A stretch of 64,000 bases of DNA from Pseudomonadota bacterium. GTDB lineage: Bacteria > Pseudomonadota > Gammaproteobacteria > Burkholderiales > Thiobacillaceae. The stretch lies in NCBI GenBank assembly GCA_021820845.1, contig JAKADC010000009.1:1-64000 (forward strand). Reading direction: 5' to 3'. Below the pieces are notes generated by a model. It had not been told where the DNA came from, searched no databases, and saw nothing but the letters and a program-made list of their open reading frames with translations. The position numbers and the translations under genes were made by a program. Of the stretch, positions 27,071 through 40,158 are shown one piece after another; the first letter of the stretch is position 1, and every line of letters starts with the position of its first letter.

Positions 27071-27874
27071 TCAGAAGCGAAGGGCGATGCCGGCGAGCCA
27101 GGCCTGGTCGGGCGCCGCCCGTGTCAGGCCCTTGCGGTAGCCGAAATCGACGTCGACGCCGGGCGTCACGGAATAGACGAGCCCGAACACCATCGAGCCG
27201 ACTCCGCGAGGGCCGTCGCGCGCGCCATTGCTTTCGAGGCTGGCATCGCCGACGAGGCGCAACGATTCGCCGAGCCGGTGTTCCGCCGCGACCGACGCAT
27301 GGAAAACGTGGCTGCGCTCATCCGGTGCGCGGTGGGGATTGCGGGTATCGCCGACGTGCAGGTGAAAGGTCCACGGATGGCGGGCGTAGCTCATCACGGC
27401 GAACACGCTCGGCGTGGCGTGTCCCGCCCCCAGCCCCTCGTCTTCGTTTCCGGTCGGCAGCCCCAGACCCGGACGCAGCGCGAAGCTCAATGCGCCGTCG
27501 TCGTAAAAGCGCCATTTGGCCGCAATCTCCATGTCCGAGACGCCGTTTTTCGTGGCGCCCGGCGCGCCGGGGCGTTCGGTCAGGCGTTCGTATGGCAGGC
27601 CGGCGATGAGGTCGAGGTTCTCGGCCAGGCCGACGGACAGCACCGCGTTGAAGCGATGAATTCTGACGTCGGACACGTCGTCCTTCGCGTGACTCAGGTC
27701 GTGCGTCAGTTCCAGTTGGGCGCGCCCCGTTCCTTGCGTACCCGTATCCTCCGTGAGCAGCGGATGCGCTGCAAAGGCGGTTCCCGTCCAGCATGCGAAA
27801 ACGAGGAAGCCATCGCGCGCCGACTGGATCGTGCACCGCGCTCCCGCCACGCGCGTCCGGGCCGGCCCATTCAC
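27071..27874 (-). CDS. Outer-membrane beta-barrel protein (transporter-like)
   Basis: The protein (267 residues from GTG 27874) has a hydrophobic leader ending TGTAFAAHPL and then alternating amphipathic strands (ELTHDLSHAKDD, FNAVLSVGLAENLDLIAGLPYE, WRFYDDGALSFALRPGLGLPTG, FGYRKGLTR), ending in IALRF with the C-terminal phenylalanine typical of outer-membrane barrels. It resembles the phenol-degradation MetA/transporter group. The GTGA start overlaps the stop of the GlcF-like gene, so it is co-translated with it. The cargo is unknown. Confidence 0.75.
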   Translation of the reverse strand: MNGPARTRVAGARCTIQSARDGFLVFACWTGTAFAAHPLLTEDTGTQGTGRAQLELTHDLSHAKDDVSDVRIHRFNAVLSVGLAENLDLIAGLPYERLTERPGAPGATKNGVSDMEIAAKWRFYDDGALSFALRPGLGLPTGNEDEGLGAGHATPSVFAVMSYARHPWTFHLHVGDTRNPHRAPDERSHVFHASVAAEHRLGESLRLVGDASLESNGARDGPRGVGSMVFGLVYSVTPGVDVDFGYRKGLTRAAPDQAWLAGIALRF

Positions 27875-29169
27875 GCGGGACCGCGCGAATCGCCCGCGGC
27901 CGCGAAGGCCTCGTCCAGCAATTCGATCCAATGGCTGACCGGCACCGGCGACACTTCGGACAGGTGGTTCAGGCAGCCGATGTTCGCCGTCGCGATCGCC
28001 TGCGGGCGGGCGGCCAGCAGGGTCTCCATCTTGCGCGCGCGCAGCGATTCCGAAAGCTGCCGCTGCAGCAGCGAATAGCTGCCCGCCGACCCGCAGCACA
28101 TGAAGGGATAGCTGACGGGAACCAGTTTGAAGCCGGCGCGCTTCAGCAGGCTTTCGACCACGCCGTTCAGCTTTTCGCCGTGCTGCAGGCTGCACGACGA
28201 CTGGAAGGCGATGCGGCGCGGGCGTTCCGGCGCTGGCAGCGCCTCCTTCCATTCCTCAGCGACGATTTCGGCGATGTCGCGTGCCAGTTCCGCGACGCGT
28301 TTCGCCTTGTCGCGGTAGCGGGGATCGTCGTCGAGAAGCTCGCCGTAGTCGCGGAAGTGCATGCCGCAGCCGCTCGCGGTGAGAACGATGGCTTCGGCGC
28401 CGGCCTCGACGTGCGGCCACAGGGCGTCGATGTTCCTGCGCATGAAGGCGCGCGCCTCGTCGGTCTCGCCCATGTGATGGCTCAGCGCGCCGCAGCAGCC
28501 GTCGCTGGCCGGCGTCAGGCGGATCCCGAAGCGATCCAGCACGCGCGCGGCCGCGGCGTTGATGTCAGGCGCCAGCCCCGGCTGCACGCATCCCTGCCAG
28601 ATCAGCATCGTCCGGGCATGCGCCCGATCGGGCCACGCGCCCGCCTCGCGCCGTTGCGGAATCCTCGCGCGCAGCGTGGCCGGCAGGACCCGGCGCAGCG
28701 TTTGGCCGGTCCGCAGCAAGGTGGTGAACCGGCGGCGGTGCGGCACGACGGCGCGCACCGCGCGGCGTGCCAGTTTCTCCCTGAGCGGGCGGGGTGCGGC
28801 CTTCTCGGCGAGTTCCCGCCCGATGTCGAGCAGGCGCCCGTAGCGCACCCCCTGCGGGCAGCTGGTTTCGCACGACCGGCAGCCGAGGCAGCGATCGAGA
28901 TGGTGCTGTACGTTGGCGCCGAGCGCCCTGCCTGCAAGCGTGTCGAGGGAATAGGCCGGAAGCAGGAACGAGGCGTCGGGCGGCTTGCCCTCGAGCATCT
29001 GCTTGATCAGGTAGATGCGTCCGCGCGGCCCGTCCCATTCGTCGTCGAGCAGGCGGAAGGTGGGGCAGGTGAACGTGCACTGGCCGCACTGCACGCAGGG
29101 CCGCAGGAGCGCCTCGGCTTCCCGCCCGACATCGGTGTCGCGATAGGTCTCGGCCAACTCGATTTTCAT
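27871..29169 (-). CDS. GlcF-like (Fe-S)-binding oxidoreductase subunit
   Basis: This 432-residue protein has two ferredoxin-type clusters (CVQCGQCTFTCP near residue 25, CLGCRSCETSCPQG near 93) and two cysteine-rich CCG domains (GCCGALSHHMGE near 227, MCCGSAGSYSLLQ near 361), the layout of glycolate oxidase subunit GlcF. No glcD or glcE lies nearby. The ATG at 29169 has GAGGGG upstream. A conserved LysR-type promoter element shared with the thiocyanate genes points towards it from 29218-29283, suggesting a role in that regulon rather than in glycolate use. Confidence 0.82.
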   Translation of the reverse strand: MKIELAETYRDTDVGREAEALLRPCVQCGQCTFTCPTFRLLDDEWDGPRGRIYLIKQMLEGKPPDASFLLPAYSLDTLAGRALGANVQHHLDRCLGCRSCETSCPQGVRYGRLLDIGRELAEKAAPRPLREKLARRAVRAVVPHRRRFTTLLRTGQTLRRVLPATLRARIPQRREAGAWPDRAHARTMLIWQGCVQPGLAPDINAAAARVLDRFGIRLTPASDGCCGALSHHMGETDEARAFMRRNIDALWPHVEAGAEAIVLTASGCGMHFRDYGELLDDDPRYRDKAKRVAELARDIAEIVAEEWKEALPAPERPRRIAFQSSCSLQHGEKLNGVVESLLKRAGFKLVPVSYPFMCCGSAGSYSLLQRQLSESLRARKMETLLAARPQAIATANIGCLNHLSEVSPVPVSHWIELLDEAFAAAGDSRGPA

Positions 29170-29217
29170 TTCGACCCCCCCTCATCGAGGCGCGTGAAAG
29201 TCCGCTGCTCGTGTCGA

Positions 29218-29283
29218 ACTATGGCGTGCGTGCCTGCGCTTGTCCAAGACCGAATTCCGATTGCAGCCATAGAAACGGGCTAT
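29218..29283 (-). promoter_or_regulatory. Predicted CynR-like operator/promoter, copy 3 (drives the glcF-like operon)
   Basis: Reading the minus strand, ATAGCC is followed after 15 bp by a block beginning AATCGGAATT and containing the -35 box TTGGAC; after an 18-bp spacer comes the -10 CATAGT. The dyad TAG-N7-CTA (a T-N11-A site) is intact. Spacing is identical to copies 1 and 2. The predicted transcript would start near 29211, about 40 bases before the glcF-like gene. Confidence 0.65.
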
Positions 29284-29315
29284 GAGCGCTTTTCCGTCGT
29301 GCGCTCGCGGCATCG

Positions 29316-29344
29316 TTGAAATCCGGCCTGCCGCTTGCTAGGGT
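29316..29344 (+). promoter_or_regulatory. Possible sigma70 promoter of the NTF2-like gene
   Basis: TTGAAA at 29316-29321 and TAGGGT at 29339-29344 are separated by 17 bp, 28 bp before the first ATG of the gene. The -10 is weak, so this is a tentative call. Confidence 0.3.
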
Positions 29345-29371
29345 GCGAAGCAGTCGCCATCCGATAGGGAG

Positions 29372-29845
29372 ATGATCATGAACGCGCGCCCGCCGTTGCC
29401 GCCCTTTACGGCGGAAACCGCCGCCCAGAAGGTCCGTCTTGCCGAGAACGCCTGGAATTCGCGCGATCCGGAGAAGGTGGCCCTCGCCTATACCGAGGAC
29501 AGCGTCTGGCGCAACCGCGCCGAATTCCTGCAGGGTCGCGACGCCATCGTGGCGTTTCTCAGGCGCAAGTGGGCGCGCGAACTCGATTACCGGCTCGTCA
29601 AGGAACTGTGGGGATTCCGCGAAAACCGGATGGCGGTCAGGTTCAAGTACGAATGGCATGACGATTCCGGAAACTGGTTCCGTTCGCACGGCAACGAGTT
29701 GTGGGAATTCGACGAGCACGGCCTGATGCGTCGGCGCGAGGCCAGCATCAACGACGCGCCGATCCTCGCGTCCGAGCGGAAATTCCTGTGGGGCGAGGGG
29801 CCGCGGCCCGAGAACCATCCGGGTCTCACCGAGATGGCGTTCTAG
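29372..29845 (+). CDS. NTF2-like protein, DUF1348 family
   Basis: This 157-residue protein is of the SnoaL/NTF2-like fold with the DUF1348 pattern [40 protein letters not shown] and [41 protein letters not shown]. Such proteins are small soluble cone-shaped binders or enzymes of unknown substrate. Two ATGs are possible (29372 and 29378); AGGGAG at 29366-29371 suits the second better. It converges with the LysR gene, whose stop lies 13 bp away. Confidence 0.8.
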
Positions 29846-29857
29846 GTCGGGCCGGGA

Positions 29858-30904
29858 TCAGCGCGCGACGCTTGATGCTTGCGGGCTCTCGGCGTCCGCG
29901 TCGACGTCGGTGCCGGGCAGGGGGATCACGGTGGACTCGCCGTACGCGATTCGGGGCAGCGCCGCGGGCTCCGGCTCGGGTTCGCCCCCGCTTTGCCTGC
30001 TGTGGCACCACAGCGCCGCCAGCACGCCGAACGCCGAGCACGCCGGGCTCTTGTAGCCGCCCTTGCGGCAGATCAGCGTGATTGTGTGGTGCGGCATTTC
30101 CGGTTTCAGCATGACGGGATAGAGCCCGTACTGCGGACTGGCGATCGTATGGGGGAGGATGGTCGCGAGCCGGCCGAGGCGGGCGACTTCCACGATCACG
30201 CTCAGCGAGTTGGTCTCCATCACGATGTGCGGCGTGATCGCGTGCTCGAGGCAATACAGGTCGAAATGCCGCCGCAGCGCGAAATCCGTGTTCAGCAATA
30301 TCAGCGATTCCTGTTCCAGCGCGCGCACGCTCAGCGGCTCGCTTTGCCCCGCGCGGGGATGCGTCTTGCCGACGGCGAGATTGAGCGTTTCGGTGAACAG
30401 GATGTTGGTGTCGATCTCGTGCGAACGCGCCTCGGTGGAGAGCACGTTCGAAAACGAGATGCCCATGTCCAGACGCCCCTCGGCCACCCCGGTCTCGACC
30501 GAGTCCTGCGGCATTTCCTGCGTGCTGACGGTGATGCCCGGATAGTGCGCGTTGAAATGCTCGAGCAAGGGGCTGACGAGGTGGTCAGTGATCGGCGTCA
30601 TCCCCAGGCGCAGCGAGCCGCGGCTCAGGTCCTGCAATTCGTGGATCGCCCGCGTGCCTTCCTCGAGTTCGCGCAGCGCGCGCCGCGCGTAATGCAGATA
30701 GACCTCACCCGCGGCGGTGAGGCGCACCGCCCGTCCCGAGCGATCCAGCAATTGCACTTCGAGCAGGTCTTCGAGCTGTTTGATCTGTTGCGACAGCGTC
30801 GGCTGCGAGACGAACAGCGCCTCCGCCGCGCGCGTGAAACTCTGCTCGTCGGCGACCGCAATGAGGTATCGGATCGAACGCGGAAAGACGATGTTTCGTG
30901 CCAT
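29858..30904 (-). CDS. LysR-family regulator, CynR-like
   Basis: This 348-residue LysR-type regulator has an N-terminal winged helix (IRYLIAVADEQSFTRAAEALFVSQPTLSQQIKQLEDLLEVQLLDRSG) and a substrate-binding domain. Its similarity by eye is highest to CynR, the cyanate-responsive activator (RAIHEL.DL.RGSLRLGMTPI, VMETNSLSVIVEVARLGRLATILP). An extra acidic, proline-rich tail of about 50 residues follows. The ATG at 30904 is chosen over an upstream TTG. The half-site of promoter copy 1 overlaps this start, so autoregulation is likely. It is the best candidate to read thiocyanate or cyanate and control the island. Confidence 0.85.
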   Translation of the reverse strand: MARNIVFPRSIRYLIAVADEQSFTRAAEALFVSQPTLSQQIKQLEDLLEVQLLDRSGRAVRLTAAGEVYLHYARRALRELEEGTRAIHELQDLSRGSLRLGMTPITDHLVSPLLEHFNAHYPGITVSTQEMPQDSVETGVAEGRLDMGISFSNVLSTEARSHEIDTNILFTETLNLAVGKTHPRAGQSEPLSVRALEQESLILLNTDFALRRHFDLYCLEHAITPHIVMETNSLSVIVEVARLGRLATILPHTIASPQYGLYPVMLKPEMPHHTITLICRKGGYKSPACSAFGVLAALWCHSRQSGGEPEPEPAALPRIAYGESTVIPLPGTDVDADAESPQASSVAR

Positions 30905-30968
30905 AGCCAATCCTTATAACACTCATCGGAATTAAGTCTTGGAAAACTATAGCCGTGTGATCCATTCT
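30903..30968 (+). promoter_or_regulatory. Predicted CynR-like operator/promoter, copy 1 (drives cbiM-like/cynS)
   Basis: ATAGCC (30903-30908), 15 bp, then a 23-bp block (30924-30946) identical to 33594-33616, ending in the -35 box TTGGAA (30939-30944). A weaker -10, CATTCT, follows 18 bp later. The T-N11-A dyad (TAG-N7-TTA) overlaps the start codon of the divergent LysR gene. The leader to the CbiM-like gene would be about 240 bases. Confidence 0.65.
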
Positions 30969-31213
30969 TGTGAACAAGGATTTACGGCGGCGACAGGCCA
31001 CTGGTACTGATGTTCCAGATCGCCTTCGCCGAGCCGCTCGGGCCCGGTTTTCCGCGGACGCCGAACGGCGCGATCCGCAGTTCCGCAGCGGATCGGACCG
31101 CGAACCGCAAGACGTGGGAAGACAGCAGCGTGTTCGGCGGTCTGCCCGGGTTTTTAGCCGTTGTCCCTGCCGGACAACCCGATCGATTCGAGTCAACACG
31201 AGGAAGAAACATC
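30969..31213 (+). other. Long leader between copy 1 promoter and the CbiM-like gene
   Basis: Together with the promoter element this makes a 309-bp intergenic region. An open frame runs through it in phase with the CbiM-like gene, but the good ribosome binding site (AGGAAG) lies only before ATG 31214. I saw no riboswitch that I can name; a cobalt- or cobalamin-responsive leader would be the natural thing to look for. Confidence 0.3.
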
Positions 31214-31906
31214 ATGCATATTGAACCAGGCATTGTCGACGGCACCAAGATCGTGCTGAGTTACGCCACCGCGGCGGGGGTGTTCGGATACGCGGCCAGG
31301 CTGGCCGTGAATGCGGTGAGGCAGGACGGCGCCGCCGCGCTCACGGTCCGCAGCCTGATCGCGGCGTTTTCCGTGTTCTGCTTCTTCCAGGTGTTCCCAC
31401 ACTATCCGGTCGGGGTCTCCGAGGTCCACCTGATACTGGGGTCGACGCTCTTCCTCATGTTCGGCGCGGCGCCCGCGGCCATCGGCCTGGCGCTCGGCCT
31501 GCTGACGCAGGGGCTCTTCTTCGCCCCGTGGGACCTGCCGCAGTACGGAATGAACGTGACGACGCTTCTGGTGCCGCTGTTTGCGCTCAGCGCGATGGCC
31601 CGCCGCTACATCCCCGCGAACACCGCGTACAAGGACGTGAAATACAGCCAGTGCCTGGCGCTCTCCACCGCCTACCAGGGCGGCGTGGTGGCCTGGGTCG
31701 CGTTCTGGGCGATCTACGGCCAGGGCGTCGGCGCGGCCAACCTGGCGCAGGTCGGCACGTTCGGCGTCGCCTACATGGCGGTCGTCCTGGTCGAGCCGCT
31801 GCTGGACCTCGGCATTCTCGCGGCGGTGAAGGGCATGCACCGGTTCCGGGACAGCGCGGTGTTCCAGCAGCGCTTCCGCCAGGTCGCCGTGCGCGCGGAA
31901 GGCTGA
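31214..31906 (+). CDS. CbiM-like energy-coupling-factor transporter permease
   Basis: This 230-residue membrane protein is of the CbiM type: it starts MHIEPGIVDGTKIVLSYATAAG, with the N-terminal Met-His that in CbiM forms the Ni/Co site, followed by six or seven hydrophobic segments (LILGSTLFLMFGAAPAAIGLALGLLTQGLFF, GMNVTTLLVPLFALSAMA). CbiN, CbiQ and CbiO genes are not adjacent. Because thiocyanate hydrolase needs cobalt and this gene shares its promoter type, cobalt uptake is the likely job. It is followed by cynS after 102 bp. Confidence 0.8.
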   Translation: MHIEPGIVDGTKIVLSYATAAGVFGYAARLAVNAVRQDGAAALTVRSLIAAFSVFCFFQVFPHYPVGVSEVHLILGSTLFLMFGAAPAAIGLALGLLTQGLFFAPWDLPQYGMNVTTLLVPLFALSAMARRYIPANTAYKDVKYSQCLALSTAYQGGVVAWVAFWAIYGQGVGAANLAQVGTFGVAYMAVVLVEPLLDLGILAAVKGMHRFRDSAVFQQRFRQVAVRAEG

Positions 31907-32008
31907 TCGCGCCGCGCCGCTGCCGGGCCGCCTTTCCCTGAAAGGTCTGTCCGGCAGGGCGTACCGCGCAAGCCCAACCCGACTCTCGACCAGCAAGGAG
32001 CCGTGCTG

Positions 32009-32449
32009 ATGAACAAGGCAGACATGAAACAGGCCATCCTCGAGGCCAAATCCGAGAAAGGCCTGACGTGGGCCGAAATCGCCGCAGCCGCCGGCCTGTC
32101 CGCGGAATACACCTGCTCGGCTTGCCTCGGAATGAACCATCTGGAGACGCCGCAGGCCGACGCGGTCGCCGAAGCGCTGGGGCTCGGCGCCCAGGTTTCG
32201 GCCGCGCTGCAGCGCTTCCCGCACAAGACGTGGGAGCGCCCCGTGCCGACCGATCCGGTGATCTACCGCTGGTACGAAATGCTCAACGTGTACGGCGAAA
32301 CGATCAAGGAAATGATTCACGAGAAATTCGGCGACGGGATCATGAGCGCGATCGACTTCACGATGAACATCGACCGCAAGCCGGACCCCAACGGCGACCG
32401 CGTGCTGGTGACGATCAGCGGCAAATTCCTGCCGTACAAGTCATGGTGA
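32009..32449 (+). CDS. cynS: Cyanate hydratase (cyanase)
   Basis: Cyanase converts cyanate and bicarbonate to ammonia and CO2 (through carbamate). The 146-residue protein has an N-terminal helix-turn-helix-like domain and the C-terminal catalytic domain with R87 and E90 (YRWYEMLNVYGETIK) and S113 (DGIMSAIDF), matching R96, E99 and S122 of the E. coli enzyme. ATG 32009 is preferred (AAGGAG upstream). It is probably co-transcribed with the CbiM-like gene and ended by the terminator at 32596. Confidence 0.96.
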   Translation: MNKADMKQAILEAKSEKGLTWAEIAAAAGLSAEYTCSACLGMNHLETPQADAVAEALGLGAQVSAALQRFPHKTWERPVPTDPVIYRWYEMLNVYGETIKEMIHEKFGDGIMSAIDFTMNIDRKPDPNGDRVLVTISGKFLPYKSW

Positions 32450-32595
32450 CGCGAACCGTCCGCGACGGGACTGACGAACACTCCCAATTGAACCGATGGT
32501 CACGCCCCACGTTGCACCTGCGGCCAGGATCGTCGGACACGAACTAGGGCTCCTCAATCCGGCACCTCTCCTCCCGGGCCGGATGCACTAGGGCT

Positions 32596-32623
32596 GCCGC
32601 CCCTTCCGGGGCGGCTTTTTTTT
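32596..32623 (+). terminator. Rho-independent terminator after cynS
   Basis: GCCGCCCC (32596-32603), loop TTCC, GGGGCGGC (32608-32615) and eight Ts form a textbook terminator on the plus strand, 147 bp after cynS. It separates cbiM-like/cynS from the methyltransferase gene. Just before it lies a weaker inverted repeat, ATCCGGC...GCCGGAT, within a repeated ACTAGGGCT. Confidence 0.92.
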
Positions 32624-32652
32624 GTATGCCGCAGCGCGGCAGAGAGGTGAAT

Positions 32653-33474
32653 ATGGCGCCACGCGATCCCCACCGTTTCATCAACGAACTCGATGACGCG
32701 GCGCTCGAGCGTCTCATCGTCCGGCTCGAAAGCCGCGCCCGGGACGACGCGTTCGCGAGGCTGCTCGACAAGTACCTGGCCCGTCTCGCCATGCCGCCGG
32801 GCGCGCGCGTGCTGGAGGTGGGCTGCGGCACCGGCGCGGTGCTGCGGGCGCTCGCGCGGCGCGACGGATTCGACGGCGAGGCGGTCGGCGTCGATCACTG
32901 CCAGATCTTCGTCGACACGGCGAACCGGTTCGCGCAGGCGGAAGGCGTCGCCGACAAGGTCGCGTTCAAGCTTGGCGACGCGCATCGCCTCGATTTCCCC
33001 ATGGCCGCGTTCGACGTCGTCATCGCCCACACCGTGATCAGCCACCTCGCGGCGCCCCTTGCCGCACTGGGCGAAATGGCGCGTGTCGTGCGCCCGGGCG
33101 GATCGGTGGTCATCTTCGACGGGGATTACGCCTCGCTGACCTATGCGTTCGCCGACCACGACTTCGGGAACCGCATGGACGCGGCGCTCGCGAATGCCAC
33201 GTTCAACAACCCGCGGGTGATGCGCGATCTGCCGCGGCTGCTGCCCGAATTCGGGTTGAAGCTGGACACCGGATGGGGCGACGCGGTGGTCGAGATCGGG
33301 CGCGGCAGCTACTTCAAGTCGTTCGCCGAAACCTATGTGCCTTACGTCAAGCAAGCGGGCGGATTGCCCGAGCATTCGGTCGAAATCTGGCTCGACGCGC
33401 AACGTCAGGCGATGGCCAACGGGACGTTCTTCGCGGCATGCAACTACTACACGTATCTCGCGCGGCGAGTCTGA
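32653..33474 (+). CDS. SAM-dependent methyltransferase
   Basis: This 273-residue class-I methyltransferase has motif I ARVLEVGCGTGAVLRAL near residues 50-66, the acidic residue in AVGVDHCQIFVD, and motif post-I LGDAHRLDFPMAAFDVVIAHTVISHL. ATG 32653 has GAGAGGTGA upstream. It sits between the cyanase and thiocyanate hydrolase genes, so a thiol or thiocyanate acceptor is imaginable, but nothing in the sequence fixes the substrate. It lies after a strong terminator; its own promoter was not located. Confidence 0.8.
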   Translation: MAPRDPHRFINELDDAALERLIVRLESRARDDAFARLLDKYLARLAMPPGARVLEVGCGTGAVLRALARRDGFDGEAVGVDHCQIFVDTANRFAQAEGVADKVAFKLGDAHRLDFPMAAFDVVIAHTVISHLAAPLAALGEMARVVRPGGSVVIFDGDYASLTYAFADHDFGNRMDAALANATFNNPRVMRDLPRLLPEFGLKLDTGWGDAVVEIGRGSYFKSFAETYVPYVKQAGGLPEHSVEIWLDAQRQAMANGTFFAACNYYTYLARRV

Positions 33475-33525
33475 CTTCGCACCCAGCGAAAGCCCCGCAC
33501 GGCGCCCTTCCGCGGGCGTCGCGCG

Positions 33526-33576
33526 CTATAGGCAGACGCTGGAATCGCCTGAAAAAAGGCCTGTTCCAGCCTATAG
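33526..33576 (+). other. Interrupted long hairpin after the methyltransferase gene
   Basis: CTATAGG (33526-33532) pairs with CCTATAG (33570-33576), and CTGGAA (33539-33544) with TTCCAG (33564-33569). The right arm contains the ATAG half of the operator in copy 2. It may terminate the methyltransferase transcript, or supply a second regulator contact as DNA. Confidence 0.45.
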
Positions 33577-33638
33577 CCCCCGCCTATGGGAGCCATCGGA
33601 ATTAAGTCTTGGAAAAGAAAAAAGCGATCGGTCATATT
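33573..33638 (+). promoter_or_regulatory. Predicted CynR-like operator/promoter, copy 2 (drives scnBAC)
   Basis: ATAG-N7-CTAT at 33573-33587 is a perfect T-N11-A dyad centred about 65 bp before the predicted start. The 23-bp block 33594-33616, identical to copy 1, ends with the -35 TTGGAA (33609-33614), and the -10 CATATT (33633-33638) follows after 18 bp. The leader to scnB is about 170 bases. With the hairpin this accounts for the 338-bp non-coding stretch 33475-33812; an in-frame extension of scnB through it is not expected from the 157-residue length of the known ScnB. Confidence 0.7.
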
Positions 33639-33812: not shown

Positions 33813-34286
33813 ATGTCATCGCCCACCCGAGAAGAGGTTCTCCGCCACATCAACACGGTCGGGCTCTTGCAGCCGGCGCTGCACAAGCAGACCCACGCGC
33901 CCTCGCCGACCGAGATCGACCACACGCTCTTCCGGGCCTACACGCGGACGTCGCACGACGTCGGCGGCGAGCCCGACGTGCCCATCGTGTACCACGAGAA
34001 GGAAGAGGAAATCTGGGAGCTCAACACCTTCGCGACCTGCGAATGCCTCGCGTGGCGTGGCGTCTGGACGGCCGAAGAGCGCCGCCGCAAGCAGAACGTC
34101 GACGTCGGCCAGACGGCATACCTCGGCCTGCCGTACTACGGCCGCTGGCTGATGACCGCCGCCCGCATCCTGGTCGACAAGCAGTTCTGCACGCTCACCG
34201 AGCTGCACAACAAGATCGACGAGCTGAAGGCACGCGCGAAGTCCGGACAGGGCCTGGGCGAGTACCTCCCCGCGAAGACCAAGTAA
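33813..34286 (+). CDS. scnB: Thiocyanate hydrolase beta subunit
   Basis: ScnABC hydrolyses thiocyanate to ammonia and carbonyl sulfide. ScnB corresponds to the N-terminal half of the nitrile hydratase beta subunit. The product is 157 residues, exactly the length of T. thioparus ScnB, and reads MSSPTREEVLRHINTVGLLQPALHKQTHAPSP in the expected way. ATG 33813 has ATAGGAG upstream. It is first in the operon, as in T. thioparus. Confidence 0.95.
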   Translation: MSSPTREEVLRHINTVGLLQPALHKQTHAPSPTEIDHTLFRAYTRTSHDVGGEPDVPIVYHEKEEEIWELNTFATCECLAWRGVWTAEERRRKQNVDVGQTAYLGLPYYGRWLMTAARILVDKQFCTLTELHNKIDELKARAKSGQGLGEYLPAKTK

Positions 34287-34308: not shown

Positions 34309-34680
34309 ATGAGCAACAAGCCGCATTACGACAGGACCCACCACGCCAAGATGGCCACCGGCATCGGCGACCCGCAGTGCTTCAGGGGCATGGCCGGCAA
34401 GGCCAAGTTCAAGGAAGGCGATCGCGTCCGCATCAAGGACCTCCCCGATCTGTTCTACACCCGCACCATGACCTACACGCGCGGCGCGGTCGGCACGATC
34501 GTGAAGCTCGTGTACGAGAGCCCGGCGGCGGAAGACGAAGCATTCGGCAACGAGGATCGTTCCGAGTGGTTCTACAGCATCGTGTTTCCGCAGAAGGAGT
34601 TGTGGCCCGAATACAGCGACGCCTTCTCCAACGATACCGTCGAGACCGAAATCCCGGAACGCTATCTCGAGTCGGCGTGA
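34309..34680 (+). CDS. scnA: Thiocyanate hydrolase alpha subunit
   Basis: ScnA corresponds to the C-terminal SH3-like half of the nitrile hydratase beta subunit. The 123-residue protein contains the expected block FKEGDRVRIKDLPDLFYTRT and YTRGAVGTIVKL, then EWFYSIVFPQKELWPEYSD. The family length is about 126 residues. It lies 22 bp after scnB; the gene order scnB-scnA-scnC is that of T. thioparus. Confidence 0.94.
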   Translation: MSNKPHYDRTHHAKMATGIGDPQCFRGMAGKAKFKEGDRVRIKDLPDLFYTRTMTYTRGAVGTIVKLVYESPAAEDEAFGNEDRSEWFYSIVFPQKELWPEYSDAFSNDTVETEIPERYLESA

Positions 34681-34717: not shown

Positions 34718-35461
34718 ATGTCCGATCATCACCACGCCCACGATCACGATGACGCTCACGGCCACGGCCACGGCCACAAGCCCGCGCCGATGGTCGACGA
34801 AGTCAGCGATTTCGAGATTCTCGAGATGGCCGTCCGCGAACTCGCCATCGAAAAAGGGCTGTTCTCGGCCGAAGACCATCGCGTCTGGAAGGAGTATGTG
34901 CACACGCTCGGTCCGCTGCCCGCGGCGCGCCTGGTCGCCAAGGCCTGGCTCGACCCCGAGTACAAGAAGCTTTGCATCGAAGACGGCGTCGAGGCCAGCA
35001 AGGCAGTCGGCGTGAACTGGGTGACGAGCCCGCCGACGCAGTTCGGCACGCCGAGCGACTACTGCAACCTGCGCGTCCTGGCCGACACCCCGACGCTGAA
35101 GCACGTCGTCGTGTGCACGCTCTGCTCGTGCTACCCGCGTCCGATCCTCGGTCAGTCGCCCGAGTGGTATCGCACGCCCAACTACCGTCGCCGGCTGGTG
35201 CGCTGGCCGCGCCAGGTGCTCGCCGAATTCGGCCTGCAGCTGCCACCCGAGGTGCAGGTTCGCGTCGCCGATTCCAACCAGAAGACACGTTACATCGTGA
35301 TGCCGGTGCGCCCCGAGGGCACGGAAGGCTGGACCGAGGACCAGCTGGCCGAGATCGTGACGCGCGACTGCCTGATCGGCGTCGCCGTGCCGAAGCCGGG
35401 CATCACCGCGAACGCGAAGCGCCCCGTCATCAAGGCGAACCGTCCCGTGCACCGCCACTGA
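34718..35461 (+). CDS. scnC: Thiocyanate hydrolase gamma subunit (cobalt site)
   Basis: ScnC is the catalytic subunit, homologous to nitrile hydratase alpha. The 247-residue protein carries the metal-binding claw VCTLCSC with C133, C136 and C138; the threonine variant is the cobalt type, and the last two cysteines are oxidised in the mature enzyme. The N-terminus is strikingly histidine-rich (ten of the first 20 residues are His), which may hold metal ions. A GAAAAGAGGA site precedes ATG 34718. Confidence 0.96.
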   Translation: MSDHHHAHDHDDAHGHGHGHKPAPMVDEVSDFEILEMAVRELAIEKGLFSAEDHRVWKEYVHTLGPLPAARLVAKAWLDPEYKKLCIEDGVEASKAVGVNWVTSPPTQFGTPSDYCNLRVLADTPTLKHVVVCTLCSCYPRPILGQSPEWYRTPNYRRRLVRWPRQVLAEFGLQLPPEVQVRVADSNQKTRYIVMPVRPEGTEGWTEDQLAEIVTRDCLIGVAVPKPGITANAKRPVIKANRPVHRH

Positions 35462-38346: not shown

Positions 38347-39161
38347 GTTATGCAGCGACGCCCGGAGAGAGCGGGTTCTGCCGCCTGATGAAGCATCAGG
38401 GCATGCAGACCCTGGGATGGGCCGTCGGCGGCGTCGCCATCCTGGCCGCGCTCTGGCTGATCGGAGGCTATCTCATCTCCATCAATCCGACGACGAAGAC
38501 CTTCGCCAAGTTCGGCCTCGTCCCCACGCTCCAGGCGTTCCCGGAGCTGTGGGGCGCGGGCAAGATCCAGAACGCGCTCGCCGCCAGCGGATTTCGTCTG
38601 GGCGCCGGACTGCTGATCGCCGTCGTCATCGGCGTGCCGATCGGCATCCTGATGGGGCGGGTCAAGTGGTTCCGCGATTTCACCAACTCGCCGTTCCAGT
38701 TCGTGCGCATGATCAGCCCGCTGTCCTGGATGCCGCTCGCGGTGCTCGTGTTCGCGACGTGGAACGGGTCGATCATCTTCCTGATCGCGATCGCCGCGGT
38801 CTGGCCGGTGATGTTCGCGACCGCGGCGGGCCTCGCCAAGGTCGATCCGAACTGGTTCAAGGTGGCGCGCAATCTGGGCGCCCGGCCGCTGCACATCCTG
38901 ACCCGGGTGATCATGCCGGCGATCACGTTTGACGTTCTGTCGGGCATCCGCCTGGCGCTCGGCGTCGCGTGGATCGTGCTCGTGCCGGCGGAGTACCTCG
39001 GCGTGACGTCGGGCCTGGGCTACGCGATCGAGGACGCGCGCGAGACGCTCTCGTACAACCACCTCACGGCGATGGTGGTCACGATCGGCATCATCGGCTA
39101 TTTCCTCGACGGCATCCTCGTGGCGCTCATCAAGCGCTACAGCTGGCACCGGGGGGCGTGA
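38343..39161 (+). CDS. ABC transporter permease 1, SsuC/NrtB type
   Basis: This 272-residue permease has five or six membrane segments and the cytoplasmic coupling loop AAGLAKVDPNWFKVARNLGARP, the EAA-like motif of this group. ATG 38343 overlaps the stop of the binding-protein gene (ATGA). It is a close paralogue of the permease at 39316 (for example both have PFQF-RMISPLSW and WFKVARNLGA), so the transporter could be a heterodimer. Confidence 0.9.
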   Translation: MSYAATPGESGFCRLMKHQGMQTLGWAVGGVAILAALWLIGGYLISINPTTKTFAKFGLVPTLQAFPELWGAGKIQNALAASGFRLGAGLLIAVVIGVPIGILMGRVKWFRDFTNSPFQFVRMISPLSWMPLAVLVFATWNGSIIFLIAIAAVWPVMFATAAGLAKVDPNWFKVARNLGARPLHILTRVIMPAITFDVLSGIRLALGVAWIVLVPAEYLGVTSGLGYAIEDARETLSYNHLTAMVVTIGIIGYFLDGILVALIKRYSWHRGA

Positions 39162-39319
39162 TGGGAACGGCATCGCAATCACCGGCCGCGGGTATCAAGC
39201 GACAGGCTTGCGCCGACCAGGCGCCGCACGGCAGGCATCGCACGCATTCAATCGACCGGACGCCAGGACGGCAGGCGTTCTTCATGCCCGGTGACCGGGT
39301 GGGGGTACAAGTACGATGA
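39161..39319 (+). CDS. Possible 52-residue small ORF bridging the two permease genes
   Basis: The ATG at 39161 shares its A with the upstream stop (TGATG), and its TGA overlaps the downstream start (ATGA at 39316). The product is basic and polar (MGTASQSPAAGIKRQA... ending DRVGVQVR), with no membrane segment or known motif. Coupling at both ends suggests it is at least translated, perhaps to carry ribosomes to the second permease, whose own ribosome binding site is poor. It may encode no functional peptide. Confidence 0.35.
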   Translation: MGTASQSPAAGIKRQACADQAPHGRHRTHSIDRTPGRQAFFMPGDRVGVQVR

Positions 39320-40158
39320 GCAGCAACACCGCAACGGTAGCCAGCGGCGTGATCAGTGCCGGCGTCAGTGGAAACTGCCTTTCACGCGCGCTTCGCAACA
39401 CGGCCGACCGGTCACTGCATTTCTTCGTGGGGCTTGGCGTCCTCTTCGCGCTGTGGGGGATCGGCATCTACATCGTCTCGCTCAACCCGGCGACGTCGCA
39501 GTTCGCCGACTTCGGCCCGATGCCTGCGCTCAAGGCACTGCCCGAGATGTGGGACAGCGGGACGATTCCCAAGGCGCTCGCGAGCACCGGCTACCGGCTG
39601 GGGGCGGGGCTGTTCCTCGCCATCGCCATCGGCCTCCCGCTCGGCATCCTCATGGGGCGAATCCGGTGGTTCCAGCGCCTGACCAACGTGCCGTTCCAGT
39701 TCCTGCGGATGATCAGCCCGCTCTCGTGGGAGCCGATCGCGGTCGTCGTGTTCGCCGGCTGGGAGCAGGCGATCGTCTTCCTCGTCTCGATCGCGTCGGT
39801 GTGGCCGGTCGCGTTCGCGACCGCATCGGGCCTGGCCAAGGTCGATCCCGCGTGGTTCAAGGTGGCGCGCAATCTCGGCGCGAAGCCCTGGCAGATGGTG
39901 ACGCGGATCATCATGCCCGCGATCACCTTCGACGTTCTCACGGGCGTCCGTCTCGCGCTCGGCGTCGCGTGGATCGTGATCATCCCGGCCGAATTCCTCG
40001 GCGTGACGTCCGGCTTCGGCTACGCCATCGAGGATGCGCGCGAAGGCCTGGAATACGCCCATCTGATGGGCCTGGTGCTGGTCATCGGCGTCGTCGGCTT
40101 CACCCTCGACAGCATCTGCGTGATGCTCATCCGGCGCTTCAGCTGGCATCGCGGATGA
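39316..40158 (+). CDS. ABC transporter permease 2, SsuC/NrtB type
   Basis: This 280-residue paralogue of the preceding permease has the same membrane layout and coupling loop (SGLAKVDPAWFKVARNLGAKPWQM). It has a longer polar N-terminus (about 40 residues) before the first membrane helix HFFVGLGVLFALWGIGIYIVSL. No strong ribosome binding site precedes ATG 39316, consistent with coupling to the small ORF. It likely pairs with permease 1. Confidence 0.9.
   Translation: MSSNTATVASGVISAGVSGNCLSRALRNTADRSLHFFVGLGVLFALWGIGIYIVSLNPATSQFADFGPMPALKALPEMWDSGTIPKALASTGYRLGAGLFLAIAIGLPLGILMGRIRWFQRLTNVPFQFLRMISPLSWEPIAVVVFAGWEQAIVFLVSIASVWPVAFATASGLAKVDPAWFKVARNLGAKPWQMVTRIIMPAITFDVLTGVRLALGVAWIVIIPAEFLGVTSGFGYAIEDAREGLEYAHLMGLVLVIGVVGFTLDSICVMLIRRFSWHRG

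Follow-up and report, generated by a model that had tools for sequence, protein, structure and literature searches.

In Escherichia coli, the LysR-type protein CynR is encoded divergently from the cyanase genes (cynR–cynTSX), and its ATAA-n7-TTAT repeats are centred at −66, −44 and −34 (PMC5002191). According to the model presented in that source, CynR-like regulators occupy an upstream dyad and a promoter-overlapping one when no inducer is available, and two dimers bind cooperatively and activate in its presence (PMC5002191). PMC5458468, citing Kantor 2015, refers to the scnABC genes of Thiobacillus as a 'conserved operon', and its text available to us names no regulator or operator for them. 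In Thioalkalivibrio thiocyanoxidans, a regulator has been proposed for the thiocyanate dehydrogenase cluster, which likewise serves thiocyanate degradation. Among the matches listed from the open literature, a LysR/CynR regulator of thiocyanate hydrolase was not found, and neither of the two listed papers naming both CynR and thiocyanate was titled on the hydrolase; an earlier mention is possible in the 2015 operon or 1998 cloning papers. Here, we describe a locus of a Thiobacillaceae bacterium (assembly GCA_021820845.1, contig JAKADC010000009.1, positions 1 to 64,000; this whole stretch of 64,000 nucleotides is referred to as the window) at which three copies of a 66-bp element precede a glcF-like operon, the genes for a CbiM-like importer and cyanase, and the thiocyanate hydrolase genes scnBAC, the same set of enzyme genes as in the Thiobacillus operon. 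Each element is very probably a complete CynR operator-promoter, with the three operons forming a single regulon.

The resemblance to the E. coli system extends to both the regulator and the arrangement of its presumed target. The LysR-type protein encoded in the window shares 45 % identity with E. coli CynR, the helix-turn-helix stretches of the two being nearly the same; it scores 373 bits against the NCBIfam NF008416 CynR cut-off of 277, and finds its best PDB sequence match in CynR (2hxr/3hfu). As expected of a cynR gene, it lies on the minus strand, divergent from cbiM–cynS. In both organisms a 15-bp dyad is followed, at equal spacing, by 7 bp and then ATC, the dyad being centred at −66 in E. 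coli and at −65 here. The two systems differ in that the site stands before three operons here, among them those of thiocyanate hydrolase and glcF, and in that this regulator is one residue short in the TPTFT loop. The assignment to a CynR-like regulator, put forward in a preliminary description of the sequence, is thus strengthened by the NCBIfam equivalog, by the operator register of cynR–cynTSX and by the co-occurrence of an orthologue with the element in relatives (see below).

The positions of the three elements and the order of their parts were given correctly in that description. Common to all three copies are ATAGCC, a TAT whose distance does not vary, ATCGGAATT-NN-GTCTTGGA, TTGGAA/C with an 18-bp spacer behind it, and a −10 of the CAT type (Table 1). 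The gap lengths required correction, with 16 rather than 15 bp between ATAGCC and ATCGGAATT and 5 rather than 8 bp between ATCGGAATT and TTGGA; because of these errors the search pattern proposed with N15 and N8 matches nothing as written. In its corrected form the element reads ATAGCC-N16-ATCGGAATT-N5-TTGGA-N19-CAT, and its core (ATAGCC-N16-ATCGGAATT-N5-TTGGA) matches the window three times with no mismatch and is absent from 100 shuffled sequences at up to 3 mismatches. The T-N11-A dyad is present in every copy and, with transcription starts predicted by setting them 7 bp behind each −10, which puts them near 29211 on the minus strand and near 30975 and 33645 on the plus strand, is centred at −65 in all three, as had been proposed; the perfect form TAG-N7-CTA belongs to copies 1 and 3, not to copies 2 and 3, copy 2 having TAG-N7-TTA. 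Likewise, the copy that touches the CynR-like gene is copy 2 rather than copy 1: the ATG of the gene (30904-30902) overlaps the copy 2 dyad, while copy 1 lies upstream of glcF and is separated from the regulator by a DUF1348 gene. Across the 2.85-Mb genome, the 19-base block (up to 3 mismatches) has three perfect matches, all at this locus, and two with 3 mismatches elsewhere. A sequence-only model of the element, trained on 55 elements from other genomes with the window sequence excluded, returned exactly three matches in the whole genome at a limit of E 10, namely the three elements. The elements are real rather than chance similarities, and within the genome they are unique to this locus.

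Window positions 33526-33576 hold an inverted repeat that is interrupted (CTATAGGC/GCCTATAG, inner GCTGGAA/TTCCAGC) and extends into the copy 3 dyad; it duplicates the operator half-site and is possibly an extra regulator site.

Conservation in relatives, proposed earlier as a check, was found when 117 family genomes were searched. Of these, 21 encode the hydrolase gamma subunit (split over several contigs in G097 and G116), and the same 21 possess both a hydrolase-type cyanase (at least 72 % identity; 72–87 % in the other 20) and a CynR at least 63 % identical, while one additional genome, G061, carries a CynR of 51 % identity next to cyanate-type cynT–cynS. The element model matched these 21 genomes and two others, G012 (E 0.035) and G022 (E 0.064); both weak matches were rejected, as they lie inside an open coding frame. 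Fisher's test on 21/21 versus 2/96 gives 3e-21, a value that overstates independence because the sampled genomes are related. The view that one LysR/CynR-type element is common to glcF, cbiM/cynS and scnBAC is upheld by its conservation with the same genes in all 21 hydrolase-bearing genomes. A site precedes the scn genes in all 21 (fragmented over contigs in G097 and G116) and glcF in 19 (a hand tally including later model matches), at a distance of 426 bp in G097. Where glcF is distant from the scn cluster or on a separate contig (G108, G111, G115 and G116), it retains a site of its own. The cynR-adjacent element of G097 faces genes for a TonB receptor and a periplasmic-binding/FecCD transporter, which replace cbiM.

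Beyond the family, scnC at least 87 % identical was found in 7 of 399 sampled genomes of the order, all of which have model matches. Three of the seven belong to two other families (G149 and G193; G165) and have sites that adjoin cynR or face away from it, as well as sites preceding glcF; directly before scnB, a site is present in G149 and G193 and none is listed for G165. The other 392 genomes include five with model matches (E 1.6e-4 to 7e-3), two of which lie beside LysR genes 29 % identical and one beside CynR, the remaining two being without assignment. A CynR above the cut-off was detected in 7 of 200 sampled order genomes, 5 of them hydrolase genomes and 2 not (G171 and G233), and 0 of 14 control genomes matched in the CynR profile search at E 1e-90. 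The phylum sample yielded scnC in 1 of 398 genomes, the source genome itself. For the 57 %-identical scnC-like gene of G374, no element was found at E 0.01. The scnC loci on Azospirillum and Roseomonas plasmids have no annotated cynR among the listed genes and no element, the best matrix scores of −2.7 and 2.1 (matrix described below) being reached by 89 and 11 of 200 simulated sequences, respectively.

Several candidate sites were discarded or stand apart. Pattern matches in G011, G086, G095 and G101 (2 mismatches), in G098 (1 mismatch), an extra one in G102 (L079) and one in G116 (L074) were dropped because no regulon gene adjoins them by tblastn; all are absent from the model list at E 0.1. 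The exact 19-mer occurs in 25 contig stretches, of which 13 lie within hydrolase/cynR loci (tblastn) and 12 look like chance. Weaker sites lacking CATANT (E 5e-8 to 2e-7) were seen in five genomes (L087, L088, L089, L090 and L091, around 4000), flanked by a TPR/SEC-C-like gene and a small helix-turn-helix gene (named by eye), and G106 has one site before a TonB receptor gene.

Taken together with the comparison of operators given below, the data support reading the three elements as CynR operator-promoters, at which binding is predicted. A CynR dimer would occupy the dyad (T-N11-A, of the form ATAG-N7-CTAT), whose centre lies some 65 bp before the start. Once inducer is present, another dimer would be expected to bind the conserved ATCGGAATTNNGTCTTGGA block adjoining the −35, where it may aid RNA polymerase at a weak TTGGAA/C-N18-CATANT promoter. 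CynR should also repress itself, because copy 2 overlaps the start codon of cynR; autorepression fits the presence within copy 2 of a promoter-like site for cynR (TTCACA-N17-TATAGT, 30974-30946), together with the overlap of start codon and dyad. A near-leaderless cynR transcript was considered and dropped in favour of this better promoter-like site. We infer that CynR binds the three elements, activates from them and represses its own gene, and that the inducer would be a linear pseudohalide anion, thiocyanate and/or cyanate.

The choice between these two anions bears on the TPTFT loop of the effector domain, a region that in LysR-type proteins forms part of the wall of the ligand pocket. In a 31-protein tree, from which the G080 CynR was excluded, one branch parts 25 hydrolase-linked CynRs from four cyanate-type ones (support 91/82). 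The loop, which is our own sub-clade marker and not a curated criterion, is one residue short in all 26 hydrolase-linked CynRs (TP-IT or TP-IS, and NP-IT in G080), and TPTFT is kept in the six others (E. coli, two Paraburkholderia, G061, G171 and G233). Judged by their sequences, the hydrolase-linked proteins form a sub-clade inside CynR marked by the shortened loop. Thiocyanate sensing by these proteins is plausible because of this shortening and because cynT of E. coli was expressed more strongly after SCN− treatment, in a study whose authors were unable to rule out cyanate in their thiocyanate (PMC12096828). That a dedicated thiocyanate sensor was derived from a cyanate sensor by the loss of one loop residue, and commands a multi-operon thiocyanate regulon comprising the enzyme, uptake of its cofactor metal, cyanase and an electron-transfer protein, is an appreciable possibility that we would not yet call probable. 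Alternatively, cyanate could be the sole inducer, as in E. coli, the thiocyanate genes responding through cyanate that accompanies thiocyanate. This we consider somewhat unlikely: the membership of the regulator in the CynR family, the inclusion of cynS in the regulon and the possible contamination in the E. coli study speak for it, but the hydrolase-linked CynRs stand on one side of a single branch with their loop uniformly shortened, and the substrate of thiocyanate hydrolase is SCN−.

It is improbable that another regulator or an alternative sigma factor binds the elements, with the CynR-like gene a mere neighbour controlling cynS only. Such an arrangement would suit the location of the most conserved block, GTCTTGGA, at the −35, a polymerase contact region, but the dyad geometry and register agree with the known CynR region, and a CynR of at least 63 % identity is found in exactly the 21 element-bearing family genomes. 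Moreover, the same pattern appears at the cyanate-type cynR loci of Paraburkholderia and G061, in stretches where no scn gene was found and the scnB query was out of frame. This was established with a 44-column matrix built from relatives and free of window sequence, the best site of each locus being compared with 200 simulated sequences. In the 4-kb cyn locus of E. coli, the best site is the cynR–cynT gap (19.4; simulated maximum 7.8), and the same gap ranks best in the two Paraburkholderia loci (19.6 and 23.0; simulated maxima 11.7 and 8.1) and in G061 (16.4; simulated maximum 11.0).

A number of observations weigh against assigning the elements to a CynR regulon. A 72-column matrix also ranks the E. 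coli gap first, but at −25.1, against a maximum of −17.4 among 300 simulated sequences, which makes this longer test a weak one; in G171 the cynR–cynS gap is the best site with a score of only −4.0. The motif is not exclusive to CynR, since similar operators (24.6 and 25.7) adjoin LysR proteins only 29 % identical (L127 and L128). The conserved block in the −44/−34 region has by eye no clear ATAN-N7-NTAT dyad; it is conserved without being palindromic, and some of its conservation might be due to polymerase instead of CynR. No site was seen before glcF in G015 and G062 by pattern and model searches, and common ancestry accounts for part of the co-occurrence seen in these related genomes. Within the window, a terminator-like site stands between cynS and the next gene, a methyltransferase. 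Thiocyanate hydrolase is a cobalt enzyme (PMC5744179), in keeping with a CbiM-like cobalt importer in the regulon; its product is carbonyl sulfide, not cyanate (PMC5744179), and the link to cyanase is therefore not metabolically obvious.

The footprint of conservation was delineated with 64 elements hand-listed from pattern matches, 22 before cbiM/cynS, 23 before scn, 13 before glcF and 6 elsewhere; sites later found by the model, such as the distant glcF sites and that of G080, are not counted. Of the 64, 63 have T-N11-A, 56 have TTGGA and 59 have CAT at the −10 position, which is fixed in the alignment. Mean information over the 66 columns amounts to 1.35 bits in the cynS-type, 1.19 in the scn-type and 1.18 in the glcF-type elements, falling downstream to 0.13, 0.18 and 0.22 bits and upstream to 0.15 (scn) and 0.16 (glcF); the upstream value of 0.99 in the cynS-type corresponds to the position of the lysR coding sequence. 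Similarity thus stops at the element edges, except where lysR coding begins. That the elements are recent duplicates of one promoter with no common regulator, as the likeness of copies within a genome and the ATCGGAATTAAGTCTTGGA sequence identical in copies 2 and 3 might suggest, is very improbable, given that the same placement is found in many genomes whose flanks are no longer similar and that class-specific differences are retained, such as TTGGAC in 12 of the 13 listed glcF rows.

Table 1. Elements and genes of the locus (window coordinates unless a locus number is given)
Feature	Position	Strand	Basis or details
Element copy 1, putative operator-promoter before glcF	29218..29283	-	Model E 9.1e-11; dyad 29269-29283; block 29243-29261; -35 TTGGAC 29242-29247; -10 CATAGT 29218-29223
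Element copy 2, putative operator-promoter for cbiM-cynS	30903..30968	+	Model E 6.8e-16; dyad 30903-30917; block 30925-30943; -35 30939-30944; -10 CATTCT 30963-30968
Element copy 3, putative operator-promoter for scnBAC	33573..33638	+	Model E 1.6e-12; dyad 33573-33587; block 33595-33613; -35 33609-33614; -10 CATATT 33633-33638
Outer-membrane barrel gene behind glcF, start uncertain	27071..27832	-	Pfam Phenol_MetA_deg
glcF-like iron-sulfur protein gene, presumed copy 1 target	27871..29169	-	NCBIfam GlcF equivalog 547 bits, cut-off 333
DUF1348 gene, between copy 1 and cynR	29372-29845		Pfam
cynR-like LysR-type regulator, 348 aa	29858..30904	-	Pfam HTH_1 and LysR_substrate; NCBIfam NF008416 CynR
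CbiM-like cobalt-uptake membrane protein, presumed copy 2 target	31214..31906	+	Pfam CbiM (longer ORF 31010-31906)
cynS, cyanase, presumed copy 2 target	32009..32449	+	Pfam Cyanate_lyase
Terminator-like hairpin and T-run behind cynS	32596..32615	+	Pattern scan only
scnB, thiocyanate hydrolase beta subunit, presumed copy 3 target	33813..34286	+	PDB best match 2dd4_B, E 5.8e-89; Pfam NHase_beta_N
scnA, thiocyanate hydrolase subunit (named by position and domain), presumed copy 3 target	34309..34680	+	Pfam NHase_beta_C
scnC, thiocyanate hydrolase gamma subunit, presumed copy 3 target	34718..35461	+	NCBIfam TIGR03887 402 bits, cut-off 291
Second scnA/scnB-like pairs in relatives	L054 7764-9130; L073 3988-4756; L122 14004-16006; L123 16192-18170

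The genes behind the elements are listed in Table 1. Thiocyanate hydrolase is identified by its gamma subunit, which exceeds the TIGR03887 cut-off, and by the match of the beta subunit to 2dd4_B; farther downstream lie genes for an ABC ATPase, an NMT1-type protein and a permease. The barrel gene adjoins glcF in many fetched relatives, and many also retain the position of the CbiM-like gene. A relative of the DUF1348 gene, 64 % identical, stands beside cynS in two Paraburkholderia cyn loci (L101 2051-2533; L102 2133-2588), which hints at a role of this family in cyanate or thiocyanate metabolism. The open reading frame 38417-38929 is about 50 % identical to the frame 39441-39929, which overlaps the permease gene 39316-40155 out of phase; the two are probably related permease genes read in the wrong frame rather than extra genes. 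Second, diverged scnA/scnB-like pairs (about 49–58 % identical) were noticed near the hydrolase genes of G064, G116, G193 and G149, with a site 0.6–1.3 kb upstream of the pair in three of the four loci (not L073).

What would be new here is a multi-operon CynR regulon that includes thiocyanate hydrolase and is run by a short-loop CynR clade. With a defined operator, the thiocyanate response of such bacteria becomes directly testable, with possible uses in the treatment of mine and coke waste and in biosensors. The two sister CynR clades also provide material for studying how a LysR protein might shift from OCN− to SCN−.

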